The notes under the pieces were generated by a model, which was given only the letters and a program-made list of their open reading frames with translations, was not told the origin of the DNA and did not search any database. From Candidatus Poseidonia sp. (GTDB lineage Archaea > Thermoplasmatota > Poseidoniia > Poseidoniales > Poseidoniaceae): a stretch of DNA of 64,000 bases. The stretch is taken from assembly GCA_016778305.1 (NCBI GenBank), contig JADHPT010000008.1:22560-86559 (forward strand). Reading direction: 5' to 3'. A program made the position numbers and the translations under genes. Shown here piece by piece: positions 12,323 to 22,176 of this stretch (position 1 is the first letter of the stretch; every line of letters begins with the position of its first letter).

Positions 12323-13057
12323 TCAGCTTACCGCCGTGATGTCAACGATGAAGCCCATTCCGGGCTCAACACGCCATCCAATACTGGATTGGATTGGACC
12401 CGCTGCACGGAGGAATCTTGTTACGATGATGTTTCGTTTGATTTCTCCACCAATGAGCGTATTTTCTAAATTAAGAACGACTTCTGCAGACGCCCTTAGG
12501 GTGTGTAACAATTTCTTATCCATTTCTTCCGGGTCCACACAAAGCATGAATGAACGTCCTTCTGATGCGACTTTTCTGATTTGTTGGACGATTTCAAATC
12601 GCCCTTTTTCATCAAGATTTTCTGGCATCAGTGAGCTCGCGGAATCAAAGACAATAACGTCTGCTGAAGGAACTGCTGGGCTCGCTAGAACGTCCTGAAG
12701 GGTCACGTCACTGCGTGAATCTGCAATCGTACCGAAACGACTGATAACCATCAATCGCCCTTCGCGAATGGCGTCTGTAATGCCGTAACCAATGCTTTCC
12801 ATCTGCTCAATCCAACCGCGTGTCGTCAATTCAGTTGTGATAACAAGTACTTTGATTCCATTGTGAACCATTCCGTGAACGAGGCGCTGTGAGATGAGAG
12901 ATTTCCCCGCACCGACTTTACCTTGTAATACATAGAGGGAACGATTTGGCATTCTCAAGCCCATCGAGTCACCCAATGAATCCGTTTCGACTTCAAAGGG
13001 GAATCCGTCCTCTACGGGTTTGTGTGCAATCATGAAAGGGTTCTCATCAAATTTCAT
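12323..13057 (-). CDS. arlH: archaellum KaiC-like ATPase ArlH (FlaH)
   Basis: 244 residues with a RecA/KaiC-type fold. The Walker A motif is LQGKVGAGKSLISQR (about residues 45-60) and the Walker B region is DVIVFDSASSL. ArlH binds ATP, usually without turnover, and sits with ArlI at the base of the motor as a regulatory ring. The start codon overlaps the end of arlG by 11 bases, so translation is likely coupled. The order arlG-arlH-arlI-arlJ is the conserved euryarchaeal one. Confidence 0.93.
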   Translation of the reverse strand: MKFDENPFMIAHKPVEDGFPFEVETDSLGDSMGLRMPNRSLYVLQGKVGAGKSLISQRLVHGMVHNGIKVLVITTELTTRGWIEQMESIGYGITDAIREGRLMVISRFGTIADSRSDVTLQDVLASPAVPSADVIVFDSASSLMPENLDEKGRFEIVQQIRKVASEGRSFMLCVDPEEMDKKLLHTLRASAEVVLNLENTLIGGEIKRNIIVTRFLRAAGPIQSSIGWRVEPGMGFIVDITAVS

Positions 13058-13541
13058 TCAACCTCACCTCCTTATTCATCGTGGCAGAGTGAGTGTGCCC
13101 TTGTACTGATTCTGAGATCCCTACGAAGAAGAGAGATACATCATCACCGTCGGTGTAGGAGAGGGTATTGTCTGATGCTTTGATCTGAAGCAGATAGCCA
13201 GGTAGCCAATCGGTTCCAGATGGAGAGATTGAAGTCGTAATTGTCGAGGGTGCTACCCCGTCAATCAAAAATTCAAAGGTCGTACTCATTTCGTGTATAC
13301 CAGAGTTAAGGACATACACTGTCAATTCATCATCACCCACTGCTGGGTTATCAAAACCGACCATCATGGGGTCTCCAGCAAAATCTACGGAGACACCGAG
13401 AGCACCAGATGATTTGCGCTCCTCAACTCCTACCGCACGGGTAACCTTTGCCCATTCGCTGACCAATATGGTACTAACACTGCCTGAAATCAGCAATGCT
13501 GTGACCAACATGATGAATGATGATGCTCCTCCGTCTGCCAT
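13047..13541 (-). CDS. arlG: archaellum stator protein ArlG (FlaG)
   Basis: 164 residues. The N-terminus MADGGASSFIMLVTALLIS is the ArlG pattern (short polar start, Ser/Phe-Ile, then a single membrane helix without processing), followed by a predicted beta-sandwich (VYVLNSGIHEMSTTFEFLIDG). ArlG, together with ArlF, forms the part of the stator that reaches the S-layer; a filament of ArlG capped by ArlF is known in Sulfolobus. Position just after arlF and before arlH supports the call; overall sequence identity to characterised ArlG appears low. Confidence 0.8.
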   Translation of the reverse strand: MADGGASSFIMLVTALLISGSVSTILVSEWAKVTRAVGVEERKSSGALGVSVDFAGDPMMVGFDNPAVGDDELTVYVLNSGIHEMSTTFEFLIDGVAPSTITTSISPSGTDWLPGYLLQIKASDNTLSYTDGDDVSLFFVGISESVQGHTHSATMNKEVRLNEI

Positions 13542-13550
13542 AGTATCAAC

Positions 13551-14204
13551 TCACGCTAAGTTATGACCCACTGTTGTAGGACCAACCGTCATGGAAATAC
13601 GGTCATGTCCGATGGTCCCTGTGTCAATCCATTGGAGAAATAAAGTCTCTCCAGTAAACCAATTCGTCGATGAGATCGAGGACGTGTAAGCCGTATCAAA
13701 GGGCACAGGATTCGTTCCGTTGGTGAACAACCACATGTCATCAAATTGAATCGTTGATGAACCTGTATTGGTGAAATTCGCGTATACTGCATTGCCCAAT
13801 GTTGGGACGACGCTTCCGGTACCAGAATTTCCTGTGCAAGGGGTTGCACAGGTGATAGTGAGTGTTGGAGCGGTAGCATAATCACCGTGGCTGGTGATCA
13901 CCACGTCAACTATTGCTCCACTTCCATCCACCGTATATTCACCTGCAAAACCACCGCCTCCCGTCGAGGAGGCCAATGTGCCATTGGTATATCCGGTTCC
14001 AGCAGTCGCGATGGTAGAGTCTACAACTGCACCATCGAACAAAATCGCATCGTCAATGGTAAAGGTTGGAATTGGTTCATCCGCATCATCCAGTCGCTCA
14101 AGACCAGAATCAATTTGAGATGTAATGGATTGATATGCCATTGAAAAAACGACAAGCATCGAGATGCCTACAATCAATCCTCCTATTCCAACCGAAGCGC
14201 CCAT
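13551..14204 (-). CDS. arlF: archaellum stator protein ArlF (FlaF) with inserted beta repeat
   Basis: 217 residues, clearly longer than usual ArlF. The N-terminal helix (VGIGGLIVGISMLVVFSMAYQ) and the helix SITSQIDSGLERLDD are typical. The beta-sandwich begins at FTIDDAILFDGAV and resumes at NAVYANFTNTGSSTIQFDD, the conserved NTGS strand. Between them, residues about 60-136 form a Gly/Thr-rich insert with GTGYTNGTLASSTGGGG and ITSHGDYATAPTLTI, resembling repeats of viral tail and other adhesive beta proteins. ArlF binds S-layer protein and caps ArlG. The insert probably extends outward from the first beta hairpin. It abuts the upstream gene with no gap. Confidence 0.82.
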   Translation of the reverse strand: MGASVGIGGLIVGISMLVVFSMAYQSITSQIDSGLERLDDADEPIPTFTIDDAILFDGAVVDSTIATAGTGYTNGTLASSTGGGGFAGEYTVDGSGAIVDVVITSHGDYATAPTLTITCATPCTGNSGTGSVVPTLGNAVYANFTNTGSSTIQFDDMWLFTNGTNPVPFDTAYTSSISSTNWFTGETLFLQWIDTGTIGHDRISMTVGPTTVGHNLA

Positions 14205-15101: not shown

Positions 15102-15683
15102 TCAGATCAGCGGTGTACCTTGGTTCACGTTAGCAGGGATGTTCATTGTCTCAAATGTCGTACCACCGCCACCAACGTGCAAGTAAAGTTGCACGTCAAG
15201 GTTAGCGTTATTAGCAGCATTTGGCGCACATGCGCCGCCGGGGATGGTAATCATCACTGGCATATTTGGCTGAATGGTACCGATATTGACGTTGGTTTGA
15301 TCCATTTCGTCAACAACAACTGCGTTTGCTACACCTCCACCTTCAATTGGTGTGGCACTTGCTGGGCATATAAGTTGGAAGAAAATTGTAGTGGTGGCGA
15401 TGCCGTCACTACCCGGAGACAAACGAGCATAAACTTCGTAATCAGTTGCCGCAGTTGTTCCAGCGTAGACTTGGTTGATCATGAGTTTTCCGTTCATTGA
15501 TTCAGCGGTGTCGTCACCGGTTGACTGTGCATTCTGTTGAAGCTTTTCTGCAGTTTGAATAATGACTGCTGCTGCAACTGCGGCAACGAGAATGAGCGCG
15601 ATAAACACGATCATTGCACCGATACCGATCGCGGCAAACTTGTCATCTTCAAGATTGGTTTGGGTTCGAGTGTTGGACTTCAT
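15102..15683 (-). CDS. archaellin (archaeal flagellin) 1
   Basis: 193 residues. A short charged leader (MKSNTRTQTNLEDDKF) precedes the hydrophobic class III signal core AAIGIGAMIVFIALILVAAV, which matches the canonical GIGTLIVFIAMVLVAA of archaellins. The mature protein packs as the filament subunit, with this helix in the core and a beta-rich outer domain. Two cysteines (LICPAS and GGACAPN) are also present at like positions in archaellin 2. Its ATG overlaps the TGA of archaellin 2 in an ATGA, so translation is coupled. Leader cleavage needs a prepilin peptidase, which is not in this window. Confidence 0.93.
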   Translation of the reverse strand: MKSNTRTQTNLEDDKFAAIGIGAMIVFIALILVAAVAAAVIIQTAEKLQQNAQSTGDDTAESMNGKLMINQVYAGTTAATDYEVYARLSPGSDGIATTTIFFQLICPASATPIEGGGVANAVVVDEMDQTNVNIGTIQPNMPVMITIPGGACAPNAANNANLDVQLYLHVGGGGTTFETMNIPANVNQGTPLI

Positions 15684-16261
15684 ACAACCACGTCTCCTGC
15701 GTTAACAGTTGCACCGTACTTGAGTACTTCATATGTGAACCCACCAGCGCCTGCTTGAATGACAAGGGTGTCAGATTGAAGTGCTGCAGGGGCACATGCT
15801 CCAGTTGGAGCGATTTGAAGAACGTACGTGCTACCTGGTAGGATATTTGCTACTGCACCGGCAGTTCCGAGTAGGGAAGCTGCTTGGGCAGTGATACCGG
15901 CAACTTGGTTAAAGTTACCGAATTGAGACAATCCGTTACCAGCACCATTTCCTTCGCAAATGATATTGTATTCAATATCAATTGCAGCCAATGGATCAGA
16001 TCCAGGGGCAAGTTCGAAGGTTATGTACAGATTTGCACCAGCGTTGGTGAGCACGATAGAGTTGATGAAGATTTTACCTGCCATCATGTCTGTTGTGTCC
16101 TCACCAGTCGCCTGCGCGTTTTGTTGCAGCTTTTCAGCCGTCTGTATAATGACGGCTGCAGCAACTGCAGCTACAAGAATCAGGGCAATGAAGACAATCA
16201 TTGCACCAATACCGATAGCCGCAAGTTCATCGCGGTTTTCGTTCGTTTTTTCGTTTTTCAT
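15680..16261 (-). CDS. archaellin (archaeal flagellin) 2, first in order
   Basis: 193 residues from ATG 16259-16261 (MKNEKTNENRDELAAIG); an ATG four codons upstream (16273) is possible. I chose the inner one because it matches the leader length of archaellin 1 and has GGTGA just before it. Residues around AAIGIGAMIVFIALILVAAV and the following IIQTAEKLQQNAQ are identical to archaellin 1 apart from single changes, while the outer domain differs. Two cysteines (YNIICEG, TGACAPA) match those of archaellin 1. A hairpin lies in the 61-base gap upstream. Probably major and minor subunits, but which is which cannot be read. Confidence 0.93.
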   Translation of the reverse strand: MKNEKTNENRDELAAIGIGAMIVFIALILVAAVAAAVIIQTAEKLQQNAQATGEDTTDMMAGKIFINSIVLTNAGANLYITFELAPGSDPLAAIDIEYNIICEGNGAGNGLSQFGNFNQVAGITAQAASLLGTAGAVANILPGSTYVLQIAPTGACAPAALQSDTLVIQAGAGGFTYEVLKYGATVNAGDVVV

Positions 16262-16292
16262 ATTTTTCACCATTTTTTTATTTTTTTGATCC

Positions 16293-16307
16293 CCCGCTCC
16301 GTGCGGG
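16293..16307 (-). promoter_or_regulatory. small hairpin in archaellin 2 leader region
   Basis: In the 61-base gap between the upstream gene and archaellin 2 there is a 5-base-pair GC stem, arms 16293-16297 and 16303-16307, around a 5-base loop. In the direction of transcription it is followed by an A-rich tract (about 16274-16288) and then the archaellin start. It could mark a processing or stability site that raises archaellin mRNA over the giant gene upstream; this is inference. Confidence 0.35.
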
Positions 16308-16322
16308 TGGAATTGGACAGGG

Positions 16323-17270
16323 TCAAGAAGAACCTCCTTGACCAAGGTTGATGCGAAGTGGCATACGTATTGTTGCCACTTCATCGGAAGCGAGTGAACG
16401 GATGAATGGAACTTCCTCTGCGAGGAAACCTGGAGGGACCCAAGGTGTGAGTAGAATTTCGCTGAGCGGTTCCATCGAGCGGTTTTGTGCTCGCATTGTG
16501 ACCGTAATTTCTCCCGATCGCATCTCATAGGCGGTGGCAACCGATAACTTTCGAGTCAGTGGCGTATCTTCCGACGTAAGGCGATAATCTGGCTTAATTT
16601 CAAAGCGAAGTGGAATGTTGCCTCCGGGCGCAATGATGGGGAGGTCGACATTTGGCGGGAACGCAGTCCACCCTTCAGGAACCGGTGGTTTGAGGCGCAA
16701 CATAGGCATGGGGATTGGGCCGTCGTTGATAATGCGGACAAGAAGCACACCCGCATCTCCACCGGCTGGCCATCGTGTGTCTACGCCCATCCAAAAATGC
16801 CTGAAGAGGAAAGGGTTGAGCGTCGATGTATTTCCACCGATCAAATCCTCAAGCAAGTCTTCGACTTCAATTGTTGATTGACGAATGTCCCCGATTTCAG
16901 CTGCCGCTGTGGATTCTCGCAATTTGTACAAGATACGTTCTGCCTCCTCAAGGGAGATGTGTTTGTGGGTCAGCAACCGATGCAACATGGCAATGCTCCG
17001 ACGCAGATGGAGGACATCTTCCTCCAACTCATCAAGCGTTTTCTCAGCGATTTTGATGTTCTTCTTGGCCCGTCCAAGTTGGTGCATACCCAGGTATACC
17101 TTGGCTTCACCGAGATCCATTTCAGTTTCGGAGAGTGATGGATTTTCTTGCCGAGCGGCCTTTCGAGCGATACGCTCTAAGGTTTGTGAAGCCTCGAGAA
17201 TGCCTCGCTCGCGGTCAGCCAATTCTTGAGCCATGACGTCGTCGGGAGTATCAAATTCATCCTCAGTCAT
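16323..17270 (-). CDS. coiled-coil plus beta-sandwich protein of archaellum locus, unknown
   Basis: 315 residues from ATG 17268-17270 (MTEDEFDTPDD); the frame is open further upstream inside the giant gene but that part is out of character. There is no signal peptide. Residues about 10-170 are helical: a TPR-like or coiled-coil segment (ETEMDLGEAKVYLGMHQLG, then AEKTLDELEEDVLHLRRSI). The C-terminal half is beta-rich with an Ig-like/NEW3 look (LLVRIINDGPIPMPMLRL, VPEGWTAFPPNV, APGGNIPLRFEI). Its start overlaps the stop of the giant gene by 8 bases. It is not a known archaellum component. Position suggests a cytosolic partner of the giant protein or of the motor. Confidence 0.65.
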   Translation of the reverse strand: MTEDEFDTPDDVMAQELADRERGILEASQTLERIARKAARQENPSLSETEMDLGEAKVYLGMHQLGRAKKNIKIAEKTLDELEEDVLHLRRSIAMLHRLLTHKHISLEEAERILYKLRESTAAAEIGDIRQSTIEVEDLLEDLIGGNTSTLNPFLFRHFWMGVDTRWPAGGDAGVLLVRIINDGPIPMPMLRLKPPVPEGWTAFPPNVDLPIIAPGGNIPLRFEIKPDYRLTSEDTPLTRKLSVATAYEMRSGEITVTMRAQNRSMEPLSEILLTPWVPPGFLAEEVPFIRSLASDEVATIRMPLRINLGQGGSS

Positions 17271-20200
17271 CCGAATCACCTCCTTCATCAAATTTGAATT
17301 CTTCATCCATGATGTTGCTCTTTTCTGCCGCACCAGATGTAACTGGGGTTGAGGCAGGTGCCCGTTCGCCGAGAATTGCAGTAAGGTCAAGACCGTCATC
17401 CGCTAAATCATTGAGCAAGCGAGCCGGATCACCAAGGTCCCGTTCAATGCGAATGGCCTTGATTTCAGCATCGGTCATGCGACCGTAGAGGTTGCCGTAA
17501 AGACGGTCCGAGCGGCGTAGGATATACCATACTCCTGCCATGATGGCCACGAAGTATGCGGCCATCATCAACAAGTTATCACTGTCCGTAGCCAATTGTG
17601 CTGGTAGGCCGAGCACGATAGCGAGCATTCCTAACACGGGAATTGAAAGGATGATGGTCAATTGGCGACGGCCGTCTGTTAGGGCGTCAAAATGATCGGA
17701 ATATACCGTTGAGATACCCTTTCGAGCGCGCTGGTAATCTTCGTGGATGAGGCGGAATTCTTCGCTGCTCTTCCAAGTCATGCGCCAAATCCACAATCCA
17801 CACAGAATCAGAACCGTAGGTCCCCAATACGACGCATTGAACAGATGGAAGGCAAAGCCGAAACTGATGACTCCAGCATAAACGCCGGCTAATTGCCACT
17901 TTTCAGATTGGCTTGCGAGCCGTGTGAAGATCACAGATAACAAAGCCGCAACCGCACAGGCAATAAAGGCAATTGAGAGGTCGGGTGACCATGATTGAAC
18001 GGTGATTTCGAGTTGCAATGCATCGTTATCTGCTTGGTTATTCTCACCAACATAGAGGTACTCCATCGATGCAGTACAGGAGATGGTTCGTGAGGCCTCC
18101 CACCAATCGATGGTATTTGCCTGCACGTCCCACTGGAAGGTGTGGTTGTCACGAGGGCCAAGAACTGCGAGGTTAACCGGAGTTGAGAGAATCGTCACAT
18201 CGCCGTCACAGTCGAGCAATGGAGTGATGCCAAGGGCTTGTGCAGTACCGTCATTTTTCACAACCATGGAGTAGGTTGTTGCTTGACCTTCATAGAAAAT
18301 TTTTTCATCAGGTCCGTGAGATTCCACTTCGGGGTCGGCATAAACGGCTAATTTGTAAGTAAAAGTCTCCTCATCATAAACCGTGTAGCCGTTGTTTTCA
18401 TCAGGATGATACAGTCTGAAGGTGAGGTCCCAGCCGTCTCCTGCGAGGATATCGGGGGGGTTTGGTGTGTCGATGACGAGTGTGATTGGGTCGCTGGTCA
18501 CCCATGGCTGGCGAGAGGGGAGCGTGACACGGGTGTCCGCTCCCAGCGAAGTTGAACCACAATATTGTGACAAATTCAGTGGTGTATCTTCACCCCCAAC
18601 TCTTAGGCTAAACGACCATTCGTAATCTGATGCATTCTGTCCAACGCTGGCCATGTCAAGAAGTCGAGAGGATTGGCAGAGCTCAATCTCATAACCGATG
18701 GCCTCGATTTGACCGGTGGGGATGTGAGAGTAGGTGATGAAGTATTCCTTCTCTCCATAATCTTGAGGTGGTGCAACCGGTGTGTCACTTTCCTCAAAGA
18801 AGCGATCCATCACGAGATTTGTGTAGAACTCAGCGCTGCCTTGAACCTCGGCATCCGCTGGTTGGAGCTTCACAATGAGGTTGGCGGCGAGGGTGAGAGC
18901 CGGTTGAGTTGCCGTATTTTTTACGGTGAAGGTGAATTGTGTGGGAGTCCCTTTCTTGAGATCGAGTGTTTGGGGAGCCGAATTTGAAATCTCCCAGTCT
19001 GTACTGGGTGTAGCAAGGCCGCCTTGGAGAAGTGAGTACGTGATGTTAACGGTCACGTCTGCATTTCCTGTATTGGTGACCATTACATCCCACGTGCGGG
19101 ATGTACCACGGTGGTATTCCTTGGTGGCTGGCCACTCGTCCACTTCCACCATGAACAGAGGGTTGACGATGAAGTCGAAGGTGTGAACCTTGAGGACCTC
19201 ATCGGTTGTAGCGTTCAGAATACGCATGGTGACGGGATAGATCTGACCGTTGAGCAAATCTTCATCTCCGCCGAGAGGTGGAACCGCTACCGAGAAGGTA
19301 TCGGAGTAGGCTTCATCCACACCAAGGTTGAGCGGCAGATTGGCCGAAGTAACCGTCCAATTTCCAGCAACTTTCGTTTCAAGAATGATGTCTTCGACGA
19401 GGTTTCCATTATTTGTGAGTGTGAAATTGACTTCCTGATTTGTTCCTGGGATGACGCCGAGACTGAGTGGCGTATCCACCATAATGCCGTGTTCTTCGCT
19501 GATGTTACCAATGACAAAAGAAGAAAGGTTGAGTCCTGAATCAGCATTGGATACCCAGAGAATTGCAGAATAATTTGTCGCTGCTAAAGCGTCGCTTGAT
19601 GGCGTGAGGCGAATCCGAACGGTTTCATCATAGCCTGCACCGATTTGGATGACGCTCGGGGTTTCAAGTTGGAACGTCAATTCTCCACGATTGGAATCAT
19701 CAAGCCACAGATTGAAACTAGCAGGTGTATTTCCTACATTGCTCACCACCACGCTGGTGGTGATTGAGTCTCCAACGGAAAGGTTGATGATTTGCGTTGA
19801 CGGATTAAGCAGGGCGTTGACCTTCTCTCCGACACGAATCGGTATGTCAAGTTGAGTAACGTAAGCACCACTGGCAAGGTCAAGAACTTGAATTTGGAGG
19901 TATTCAATGCTGTCCGCAGGAGCTTCTGGGTCGGTTGTTACATAGGTGGAGAAATTCTTCATGTGGACCAGATCATCAGAGGGATAATCTGCTACATCGG
20001 CAGGTACCGAAAGAAGGGTGGTAGACGGCATGAGGGTGGTATTTGAGAAGGAAGCAACCCAATTTGCGGGCAGGGTATTCATCATCACCAAGGAATAGGA
20101 GGTCATGTTGTTACCGGTGTTGTTGAGTGAGAGGGGGACTTCTGTTTCTTCCCCGACCATGACGTCAAAGGGAGCGTAGTCTTGACCCTCAGCGCCGAGA

Positions 20201-22176
20201 ATAGGCGGGACGACGAGTGTCAGCGTCTGCGTGATGGCTGAAGCGAGCACGTTGGAGCCCTGATGTACGCCACCCAGCGTAGGAGTGGCAGTAACAGGAA
20301 GGGTGAGTGTACCCGACATCGGGTAATCGTCAGCTGGCCCTTGCAACGTCATGACGGCTGCGGAACTTTGTCCGAGATTCATACCCGGGAAGGCCGTTGG
20401 CGTAAGGCCGACAGCCCAGCGTGTGGCTTCGTCAAAGCCACCGGTGGAGTCCGAAACGAAGACCGGCGTTCCCAAAGAGAGCGTTGCATCAACCGTTTCT
20501 GTCAATTGGCTTACGAGATTATGACGGACCTCGACTTCCAGATCAAGGATTTCCTCAAGACCAACGCCTTGACGAGCAAGCATGACTTCTTCAACGGTCA
20601 TTTCGATATGTTCAGTGGGCAAGCCTGGGTCAACAATGACAACTGGCTGGATGGTCACAGGAGCAGCACCGAGATCGGGCAAGCCTCCGTCGGTGGATTG
20701 GGCTTGAACCCACACAGACATTGAATCGCCAGCACGGTTGTATTCTGCAGCGACGAGGGGATTTTTGATGCTTGCAGGCTTGACGTTCACAGCGATGTTC
20801 ACGTCTTCGCCAGGTTGAAGAATGCCTGTTGAAGTACTGTCTAAGGAGACATCCCAGTTAATTGGGTTGGTTGAAACACCGGATGAGAGCATGAAGGTCG
20901 TAGGAGCGTTGCCCGTGTTCTCAACGTTTACTTGGATGGTCGCTTCGACCCCGGGAATCAACGTTGTAGCGGCAGTTGGCATCGTAACGTCGACTCCGTA
21001 GGATTCGCTTGCCAAGACAGTGGTCGAAACGGTCTTGGAGAGGGAAGCGCTGTTGGAGGCGACCGTGAGGGTCACAATCTCTGAATCTGTACGCTGTGCA
21101 TCCACTGGAACGGCCACTTGAATCAAAACTGAACTCGTGACGCCAGGAGAGAAGTTGGGGGTTTGCGAAGCTGGCGTCATCACCGTAACCCAACCGCTCA
21201 CGTTGCTCTGGGAAACGGTGTAATCATCACTGGACAACCCGACATTCTTCACAAGATAGGTGAGTGTGGAGCTTTGTCCGGGCTCTATGCTTCGATCGTG
21301 TGCCGGCGTGATTTCGAAATCAAAATTTGAAAAGACAACGACTTGCGATAAGAATTCGACTGATTTTGACCAACCCACACCGCTCGCCGTCATGGTTCCG
21401 ACGACGTCCCATGTCCCGCTACGAGAGGTGGCATCAAACGACATCGCAATGCTTTGAGGGGTTGCTCCGCCGTTGTAAATCGAACCGGGATTAACAACTG
21501 GTATGGTTGATGAAGCCACGGAAAAAGTGTTGCTAGGATTCGCTACTTCGGTGAACGCAAGCGTGTATGCCGCTGAGAAATTCTTGACGCCATCGTTGCG
21601 AACAGCAATGGAGAAGGCATGAACGGATTGTGACCAAACAACGTTCGTGGCGCCTCCAGTTGGCTGAGGGATGGTTACGATTGGGACGCTGGCATTTTGA
21701 TAATGCTGGACATCAACAATCTTCTGTTCTTCGTTGTTCGCAGTATTAACGTCAGGGCTTGAAGTAACCCGTGCTTTGAGAATTTGATCATCGCCCAGTG
21801 TAGCAGCCCATGAAAAGACCTGCACCGCACTGCTCGCTCCCGCATTGATGACTCCAAGGTCAGCGGTATCAATGACGACATCCCCTGATGATGCAGTGCC
21901 TTGAAGCAAGAGAGAAAGAGATGCTTGACCGGCTGCGAGGCCAATGTTTTGGACTTGAATTCGCACGATGTGGGTGGAATCTTCTGCGATTACATTGCCG
22001 TTGAGGAGAATTGAGCCAGCGTCATCGAGCGTGAATGAGGAAATCACGAAATCCGGCGTTGAACGCCCGCTGTCTGCAACGGTAAGAGGAGCGACCATAG
22101 TGGCAACGAGAAGGGCAACCAGCGCATAAGCAAGTGTTGGCTTAGACAGTATCGGCACCCCCACTCGGCTTTTCAA
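17263..22176 (-). CDS. giant repeat protein with membrane C-terminus, head of archaellum locus
   Basis: Up to 1637 residues. A signal peptide is clear (hydrophobic AYALVALLVATMVAPLTVA). The start is uncertain: TTG 22174-22176 gives a basic N-region, GTG 22156-22158 a shorter one. About 1350 residues of exported Ig-like beta modules follow, in the CARDB/NEW3 style (HIVRIQVQNIGLAAGQASL, STLTYLVKNVGLSSDDYTV, IQVNVENTGNAPTTFMLSS). Near residue 1390 come about five membrane helices (LSIAFIACAVAALLSVIF; VYAGVISFGFAFHLF; LTIILSIPVLGMLAIVLG) and a cytosolic acidic tail. It is translationally coupled to the next gene. It could brace the cell wall around the motor, but its role is unknown. Confidence 0.8.
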   Translation of the reverse strand: MKSRVGVPILSKPTLAYALVALLVATMVAPLTVADSGRSTPDFVISSFTLDDAGSILLNGNVIAEDSTHIVRIQVQNIGLAAGQASLSLLLQGTASSGDVVIDTADLGVINAGASSAVQVFSWAATLGDDQILKARVTSSPDVNTANNEEQKIVDVQHYQNASVPIVTIPQPTGGATNVVWSQSVHAFSIAVRNDGVKNFSAAYTLAFTEVANPSNTFSVASSTIPVVNPGSIYNGGATPQSIAMSFDATSRSGTWDVVGTMTASGVGWSKSVEFLSQVVVFSNFDFEITPAHDRSIEPGQSSTLTYLVKNVGLSSDDYTVSQSNVSGWVTVMTPASQTPNFSPGVTSSVLIQVAVPVDAQRTDSEIVTLTVASNSASLSKTVSTTVLASESYGVDVTMPTAATTLIPGVEATIQVNVENTGNAPTTFMLSSGVSTNPINWDVSLDSTSTGILQPGEDVNIAVNVKPASIKNPLVAAEYNRAGDSMSVWVQAQSTDGGLPDLGAAPVTIQPVVIVDPGLPTEHIEMTVEEVMLARQGVGLEEILDLEVEVRHNLVSQLTETVDATLSLGTPVFVSDSTGGFDEATRWAVGLTPTAFPGMNLGQSSAAVMTLQGPADDYPMSGTLTLPVTATPTLGGVHQGSNVLASAITQTLTLVVPPILGAEGQDYAPFDVMVGEETEVPLSLNNTGNNMTSYSLVMMNTLPANWVASFSNTTLMPSTTLLSVPADVADYPSDDLVHMKNFSTYVTTDPEAPADSIEYLQIQVLDLASGAYVTQLDIPIRVGEKVNALLNPSTQIINLSVGDSITTSVVVSNVGNTPASFNLWLDDSNRGELTFQLETPSVIQIGAGYDETVRIRLTPSSDALAATNYSAILWVSNADSGLNLSSFVIGNISEEHGIMVDTPLSLGVIPGTNQEVNFTLTNNGNLVEDIILETKVAGNWTVTSANLPLNLGVDEAYSDTFSVAVPPLGGDEDLLNGQIYPVTMRILNATTDEVLKVHTFDFIVNPLFMVEVDEWPATKEYHRGTSRTWDVMVTNTGNADVTVNITYSLLQGGLATPSTDWEISNSAPQTLDLKKGTPTQFTFTVKNTATQPALTLAANLIVKLQPADAEVQGSAEFYTNLVMDRFFEESDTPVAPPQDYGEKEYFITYSHIPTGQIEAIGYEIELCQSSRLLDMASVGQNASDYEWSFSLRVGGEDTPLNLSQYCGSTSLGADTRVTLPSRQPWVTSDPITLVIDTPNPPDILAGDGWDLTFRLYHPDENNGYTVYDEETFTYKLAVYADPEVESHGPDEKIFYEGQATTYSMVVKNDGTAQALGITPLLDCDGDVTILSTPVNLAVLGPRDNHTFQWDVQANTIDWWEASRTISCTASMEYLYVGENNQADNDALQLEITVQSWSPDLSIAFIACAVAALLSVIFTRLASQSEKWQLAGVYAGVISFGFAFHLFNASYWGPTVLILCGLWIWRMTWKSSEEFRLIHEDYQRARKGISTVYSDHFDALTDGRRQLTIILSIPVLGMLAIVLGLPAQLATDSDNLLMMAAYFVAIMAGVWYILRRSDRLYGNLYGRMTDAEIKAIRIERDLGDPARLLNDLADDGLDLTAILGERAPASTPVTSGAAEKSNIMDEEFKFDEGGDSDD

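Follow-up and report, generated by a model that had tools for sequence, protein, structure and literature searches.

A phage-type module in a hairpin of the archaellum stator protein ArlF of Poseidoniales, a candidate docking arm

The arlF gene of Candidatus Poseidonia sp. raises the question why a stator protein of the archaellum carries a large extra block within a beta hairpin, where this block came from and what it might do. The gene lies in a 64,000-nt stretch of contig JADHPT010000008.1, referred to here as the window. According to passages in two papers, the ArlG filament is thought to be capped by ArlF, whose contact with the surface layer (S-layer) is needed for motility (PMC8667602, PMC12024892). 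We find that the block is a module of 82 residues with homologues among the plug-in modules of phage virion proteins; that it works as a docking arm between the stator and the surface layer of the cell is a reading to which we give roughly even weight. The relevant features are:

13551..14204, minus strand: arlF gene including the stop codon, 217 aa.
14079..14195, minus strand: N-terminal helix, residues 4–42 (DSSP on the predicted model), likely membrane-spanning as in other ArlF.
14037..14066, minus strand: core strand 1 of the stator sandwich, residues 47–56 (alignment and model).
13791..14036, minus strand: inserted module, residues 57–138, a predicted six-strand barrel (missing from insert-free ArlF; model with a predicted local distance difference test score, pLDDT, of 95; viral homologues).
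13977..14000, minus strand: module signature 1, GTGYTNGT, residues 69–76 (conservation in 43 inserts).
13854..13892, minus strand: module signature 2, SHGDYATAPTLTI, residues 105–117 (conservation in 43 inserts).
13554..13790, minus strand: core strand 2 and remainder of the stator sandwich, residues 139–217 (ArlF profile match at 139–206; model).

An initial annotation of this DNA had placed an extra block at ArlF residues 60–136 and correctly translated this into window positions 13797–14027. The block does lie between strand 1 (PTFTIDDAILF) and strand 2 (AVYANFTNTGS) of the sandwich, but alignment with the insert-free ArlF of the sister family (131–146 residues) moves its limits to 57–138. 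In the following, family 1 is the window's own family and family 2 the sister family; g-numbers denote genera and L-numbers loci or sequences. That the block is ordinary ArlF sequence was rejected in this comparison, since it is missing from 19 of 19 distinct family 2 sequences outside g14 (g15, g17, g19 and g21; 131–146 aa, at most 7.8 bits with the module profile). An artefact of one assembly was likewise rejected on the basis of 77 distinct family 1 sequences.

The suspected separate beta module is borne out by prediction. Modelled alone from an alignment of 43 rows, the insert forms six strands without a helix at the pLDDT given above and a predicted template modelling score of 0.82. Both the insert-only and the full-protein model are confidently ordered, and a disordered block was rejected on these grounds. 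In the whole-protein model the end strands of the insert run on into core strands (residues 48–67 and 131–146). G69 is invariant in the 43 inserts and Y72, G75, G84, G96, G107 and Y109 are nearly so.

To trace the module's origin, profile comparisons with viral proteins are most informative. With the family 1 insert profile, the best viral module scores 61 bits among the 80 viral loci of a first set (among the matches listed) and 73 bits, over profile positions 2–78, among the 49 loci of a second. As the viral loci were picked by DNA patterns spelling the module, they are uninformative on its frequency, and sampling alone favours a closer best match in the viral pool, which is the larger. In controls, the first set reached at most 8.5 bits once its translations were reversed and shuffled, and the second at most 6.7 when reversed; with an earlier profile the control maximum was 8.9 bits. 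A merely compositional likeness was rejected by these controls. Among the matches listed, none is closer to the Poseidonia insert than the viral modules.

A case with comparable architecture is the module of viral locus L208 (61 bits; 52.5% identity over 80 residues with the window insert). In a stabilization-type protein (L208:10902-12923, minus strand) it is a clean insert between conserved parts, and three of three aligned phage relatives are without it. This plug-in behaviour, an insert inside another domain that is missing from some relatives, holds for ArlF and the viral L208 protein alike; "plug-in module of phage virion proteins" is our own description and does not refer to a curated family. 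Homologous modules are carried by the phage virion proteins PHROG 460 (head closure Hc2) and PHROG 438 (baseplate wedge), where the host protein is a virion part and not a motor part. The initial annotation had likened the block to repeats of phage tail and other surface-binding proteins. Homology to virion proteins stands, but "tail" is too narrow, because the nearest sequences include the insert in a stabilization-type (head-closure) protein. The window insert by itself gave E values of at least 0.28 against PHROG, and of at least 0.035 within the whole protein; it matched no PHROG at E 0.01. Residues 446–508 of the tailspike or tail fibre Dpo31/Dpo36 (PDB 28lx, 8ck1) match the insert profile with E 7.2e-5, over profile positions 2–57 of 78 only. 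Scanning viral sequences for stretches of the window insert returned 32 pattern matches, of which none was confirmed as a relative; GenBank phages gave nothing at E 0.01 when a single insert (L014) was run against them by tblastn, and a profile search restricted to short proteins gave four matches. A further viral gene product with the module (L312:6664-7623, plus strand) shares 58% identity over 53 residues with the window insert; its gene cluster resembles portal, capsid and tail genes by eye.

The module is also found in cellular surface-type proteins. The genome of the window holds one other module match at E 10 or better:

L123:155-8272 (G000, contig C3), minus strand: 2705-aa surface-type protein, module at residues about 454–532.

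This copy matches the insert profile with E 1.7e-9. The protein has a predicted DUF4129 at its C-terminus and contains many acidic DxDxDG-like repeats, reminiscent of thrombospondin type 3 repeats. Giant surface-type proteins of Poseidoniales, which are different host proteins from ArlF, reach up to 46 bits with a profile built from family 1 only, and the best copy shows 37.7% identity over 77 residues with the window insert. Family 2 has many module matches in frames of about 2400 residues. Within the phylum, the profile matched 47 of 243 genomes, 46 of them in this order. Since the module also occurs in the cell's giant surface-type protein, the donor may have been viral or a surface protein of the cell itself, and the module would have been captured from a pool common to both.

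Is the insert a peculiarity of this genome? In family 1, ArlF was matched in 154 of 170 genomes, including 21 of the 21 that are at least 90% complete, and all 16 misses are less than 90% complete. Among the 77 distinct sequences fetched from 11 genera, many of which also went into the module profile, 74 score at least 14.8 bits with it. The three exceptions are L073 and L120, which are fragments located after the insert, and L095 (g2), whose insert of roughly 235 residues by eye scores 6.8 bits without a clear module match. Full-length family 1 ArlF have at least 209 residues except for the g10 frame L098 (137), which is probably cut short. Longer inserts also occur in g10, whose sequences are incomplete. 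L095 of g2 is whole with 365 aa, and the cut g10 sequences L046 and L048 have at least 383 and 266 aa. Another domain seems to separate pieces of the module in g10; searched against Pfam, the longer ArlF of g2 and g10 had zero matches at E 0.01.

ArlF of the sister family outside g14 are without the block, whereas it is present across family 1 and recurs in g14. There, seven of seven ArlF carry it at the same site (13.9–37.7 bits, profile built from family 1 only). In a tree built from the ArlF core alone (46 of 90 rows, the 44 that came from protein searches being omitted), g14 is nested in family 2 beside the insert-free g21. The insert trait needs two changes on this tree, and a single clade of all carriers was rejected (approximately unbiased test, p 0.025). 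Two separate captures at one hairpin are the best reading of these data; one early gain with several losses is an alternative that retains some probability. Trees of the module itself comprise about 80 columns, with six overlapping or partial cellular windows omitted. The later one, which includes 12 viral modules out of a stock of 45 and a further 34 out of the 38 in the second viral set, unites four g14 inserts in a clade (99/80) that groups with giant surface-type protein modules of the window's genus (100/87), away from the family 1 inserts. An earlier, quicker tree with 36 of the 45 viral modules had g14 inserts in two places. Family 1 inserts form one group with a support of 14 in the earlier tree and two groups, with one row among viral ones, in the later. 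The draft genome G034 (labelled g4; contigs C29 and C5) has two different ArlF genes (L033, L034), one of which groups among g3 on the core tree and may stem from a contaminating contig.

Such a distribution also bears on whether the module does anything at all. A self-contained domain in a tolerant hairpin could be a passenger with no role of its own: viral proteins, too, carry such modules as optional inserts, and the same hairpin received one at least twice, as a tolerant site would. We consider this improbable, since the module is kept in every family 1 ArlF spanning the site other than L095, and selection on the insert is as strong as on the core. The median pN/pS ratio (nonsynonymous to synonymous polymorphism) is 0.20 in the insert, 0.19 in the core and 0.13 in the helix region (87 pairs above 75% identity, from 30 sequences); by this measure the inserted block is under purifying selection.

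Hints on function come from solved structures. The nearest fold is the protruding domain I of the contractile tail sheath protein gp18 of T4 (PDB 3foa, 3fo8, 3j2m, 9f4a), although Foldseek returned nothing under E 0.001 for either model against PDB and there is no sequence match by profile. Domain I is a six-stranded beta barrel, to which the predicted six strands of the insert may correspond, and beside the barrel it has an alpha helix that the insert model is without; located in ArlF instead of a sheath protein, the module resembles domain I but is not one. In passages of PMC3004832 this helix is described, and domain I is said to be inserted into domain II, to protrude and to bind the baseplate and the retracted fibres. 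By analogy, the module would be a protein-docking part. The ArlF (FlaF) and ArlG (FlaG) structures of Sulfolobus acidocaldarius (PDB 4zbh, 4p94, 5tuh, 5tug) have no extra module between strands 1 and 2. No solved structure was matched by sequence with the whole window ArlF, and the ArlF profile gave a best E of 0.049, nothing convincing.

The predicted position and rigidity would suit docking. Because strand 1 begins just after the helix and about 10 residues lead to the hairpin, the hairpin would be at the ArlF end pointing away from the membrane; in Sulfolobus, this side would meet the S-layer. With its own predicted six-strand fold and end strands continuing core strands, the module would be a stiff extension and not a floppy loop. 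It may dock onto the surface layer by binding a glycoprotein or a giant surface protein and so take up the motor torque; as a guess, giant surface-type proteins carrying the same module are candidate partners. The same rigid setting would suit a spacer or oligomer contact that fixes the stator geometry by attaching to ArlG, ArlF or the rotor instead of touching the envelope, and gp18 domain I also has contacts inside the virion (passages in PMC3004832). We rate this as rather unlikely: the window ArlG has an ordinary length (164 aa) and the ArlG alongside insert-free sister ArlF measure about 160 aa, so that no matching change in ArlG is evident.

An outward-facing adhesin that sticks the archaellum base to particles, algae or other cells, with no part in holding the stator, is a somewhat stronger competitor, yet still a minor one. 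The archaella of this order were argued to be adhesive, with chemotaxis genes absent and archaellum genes enriched in particle fractions (passages in PMC6461757), extra phage sheath domains were proposed to help adhesion (passages in PMC9230969), and the other module copy of the genome is in a giant surface-type protein. However, ArlF is a low-copy protein that probably resides at the surface layer or beneath it, where an adhesin would be badly placed, and archaellins would be the more natural carriers.

That sister-family genera retain archaellum genes and an ArlF without the module speaks against its being necessary. The wider scenario, in which the ArlF hairpin acquired a docking module from phage particles, the same hairpin in the other family took up a second copy from a surface-protein lineage and the module replaced S-layer binding as the stator grip, is offered as tentative and less probable than not. 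The anchoring question is raised in passages of PMC12448462: Thermoplasmatales are without an S-layer, O. meridianum swims and an amorphous protein layer was proposed as the anchor; ArlF of S-layer-less species show minor differences and no obviously distinct binding motif, and how the stator holds in such cells is named as an open question. Poseidoniales, by name of the same phylum, show the expected change, a whole domain at the hairpin likely facing the envelope. A docking module would give the archaellum motor a new grip on the cell envelope, and a virion part, or its close kin, would be built into a cellular rotary motor. The presence of the module across one family and its second gain in a genus of another make the anchoring question testable. 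Domain insertion, ArlF and phage modules are each known already. In the searchable literature on ArlF/FlaF in Poseidoniales/Marine Group II and on tail sheath and archaellum domain insertion we found no description of a phage-type module in ArlF; passages of a marine Group II paper cover the archaellum cluster without the word FlaF (PMC6336850).

The assignment of the gene as arlF follows from an N-terminal helix followed by a FlaF/FlaG beta sandwich and from its neighbours, which match ArlG, KaiC-type ArlH, the secretion ATPase ArlI, the platform protein ArlJ and archaellin. The NCBIfam ArlF profile NF052590 matches residues 139–206 with E 6.2e-8 and 32.9 bits, the NCBI naming cut-off being 110; this cut-off is reached by 0 of 292 genomes of the order, and of 14 named control genomes five match and one passes. 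Pfam gave zero matches for the window ArlF at E 1. The likely stator partner is adjacent:

13047..13541, minus strand: arlG, 164 aa, no insert noted (ArlG profile, E 2.1e-13).

A second archaellin-like frame (window 15680-16540, minus strand) shares a few bases with the first; as listed it is much extended at the N-terminus, so that translation probably starts further inside the frame. Just upstream of the archaellum cluster, a 1637-aa frame (window 17263-22176, minus strand) shows many Ig-like-looking stretches and C-terminal membrane segments.
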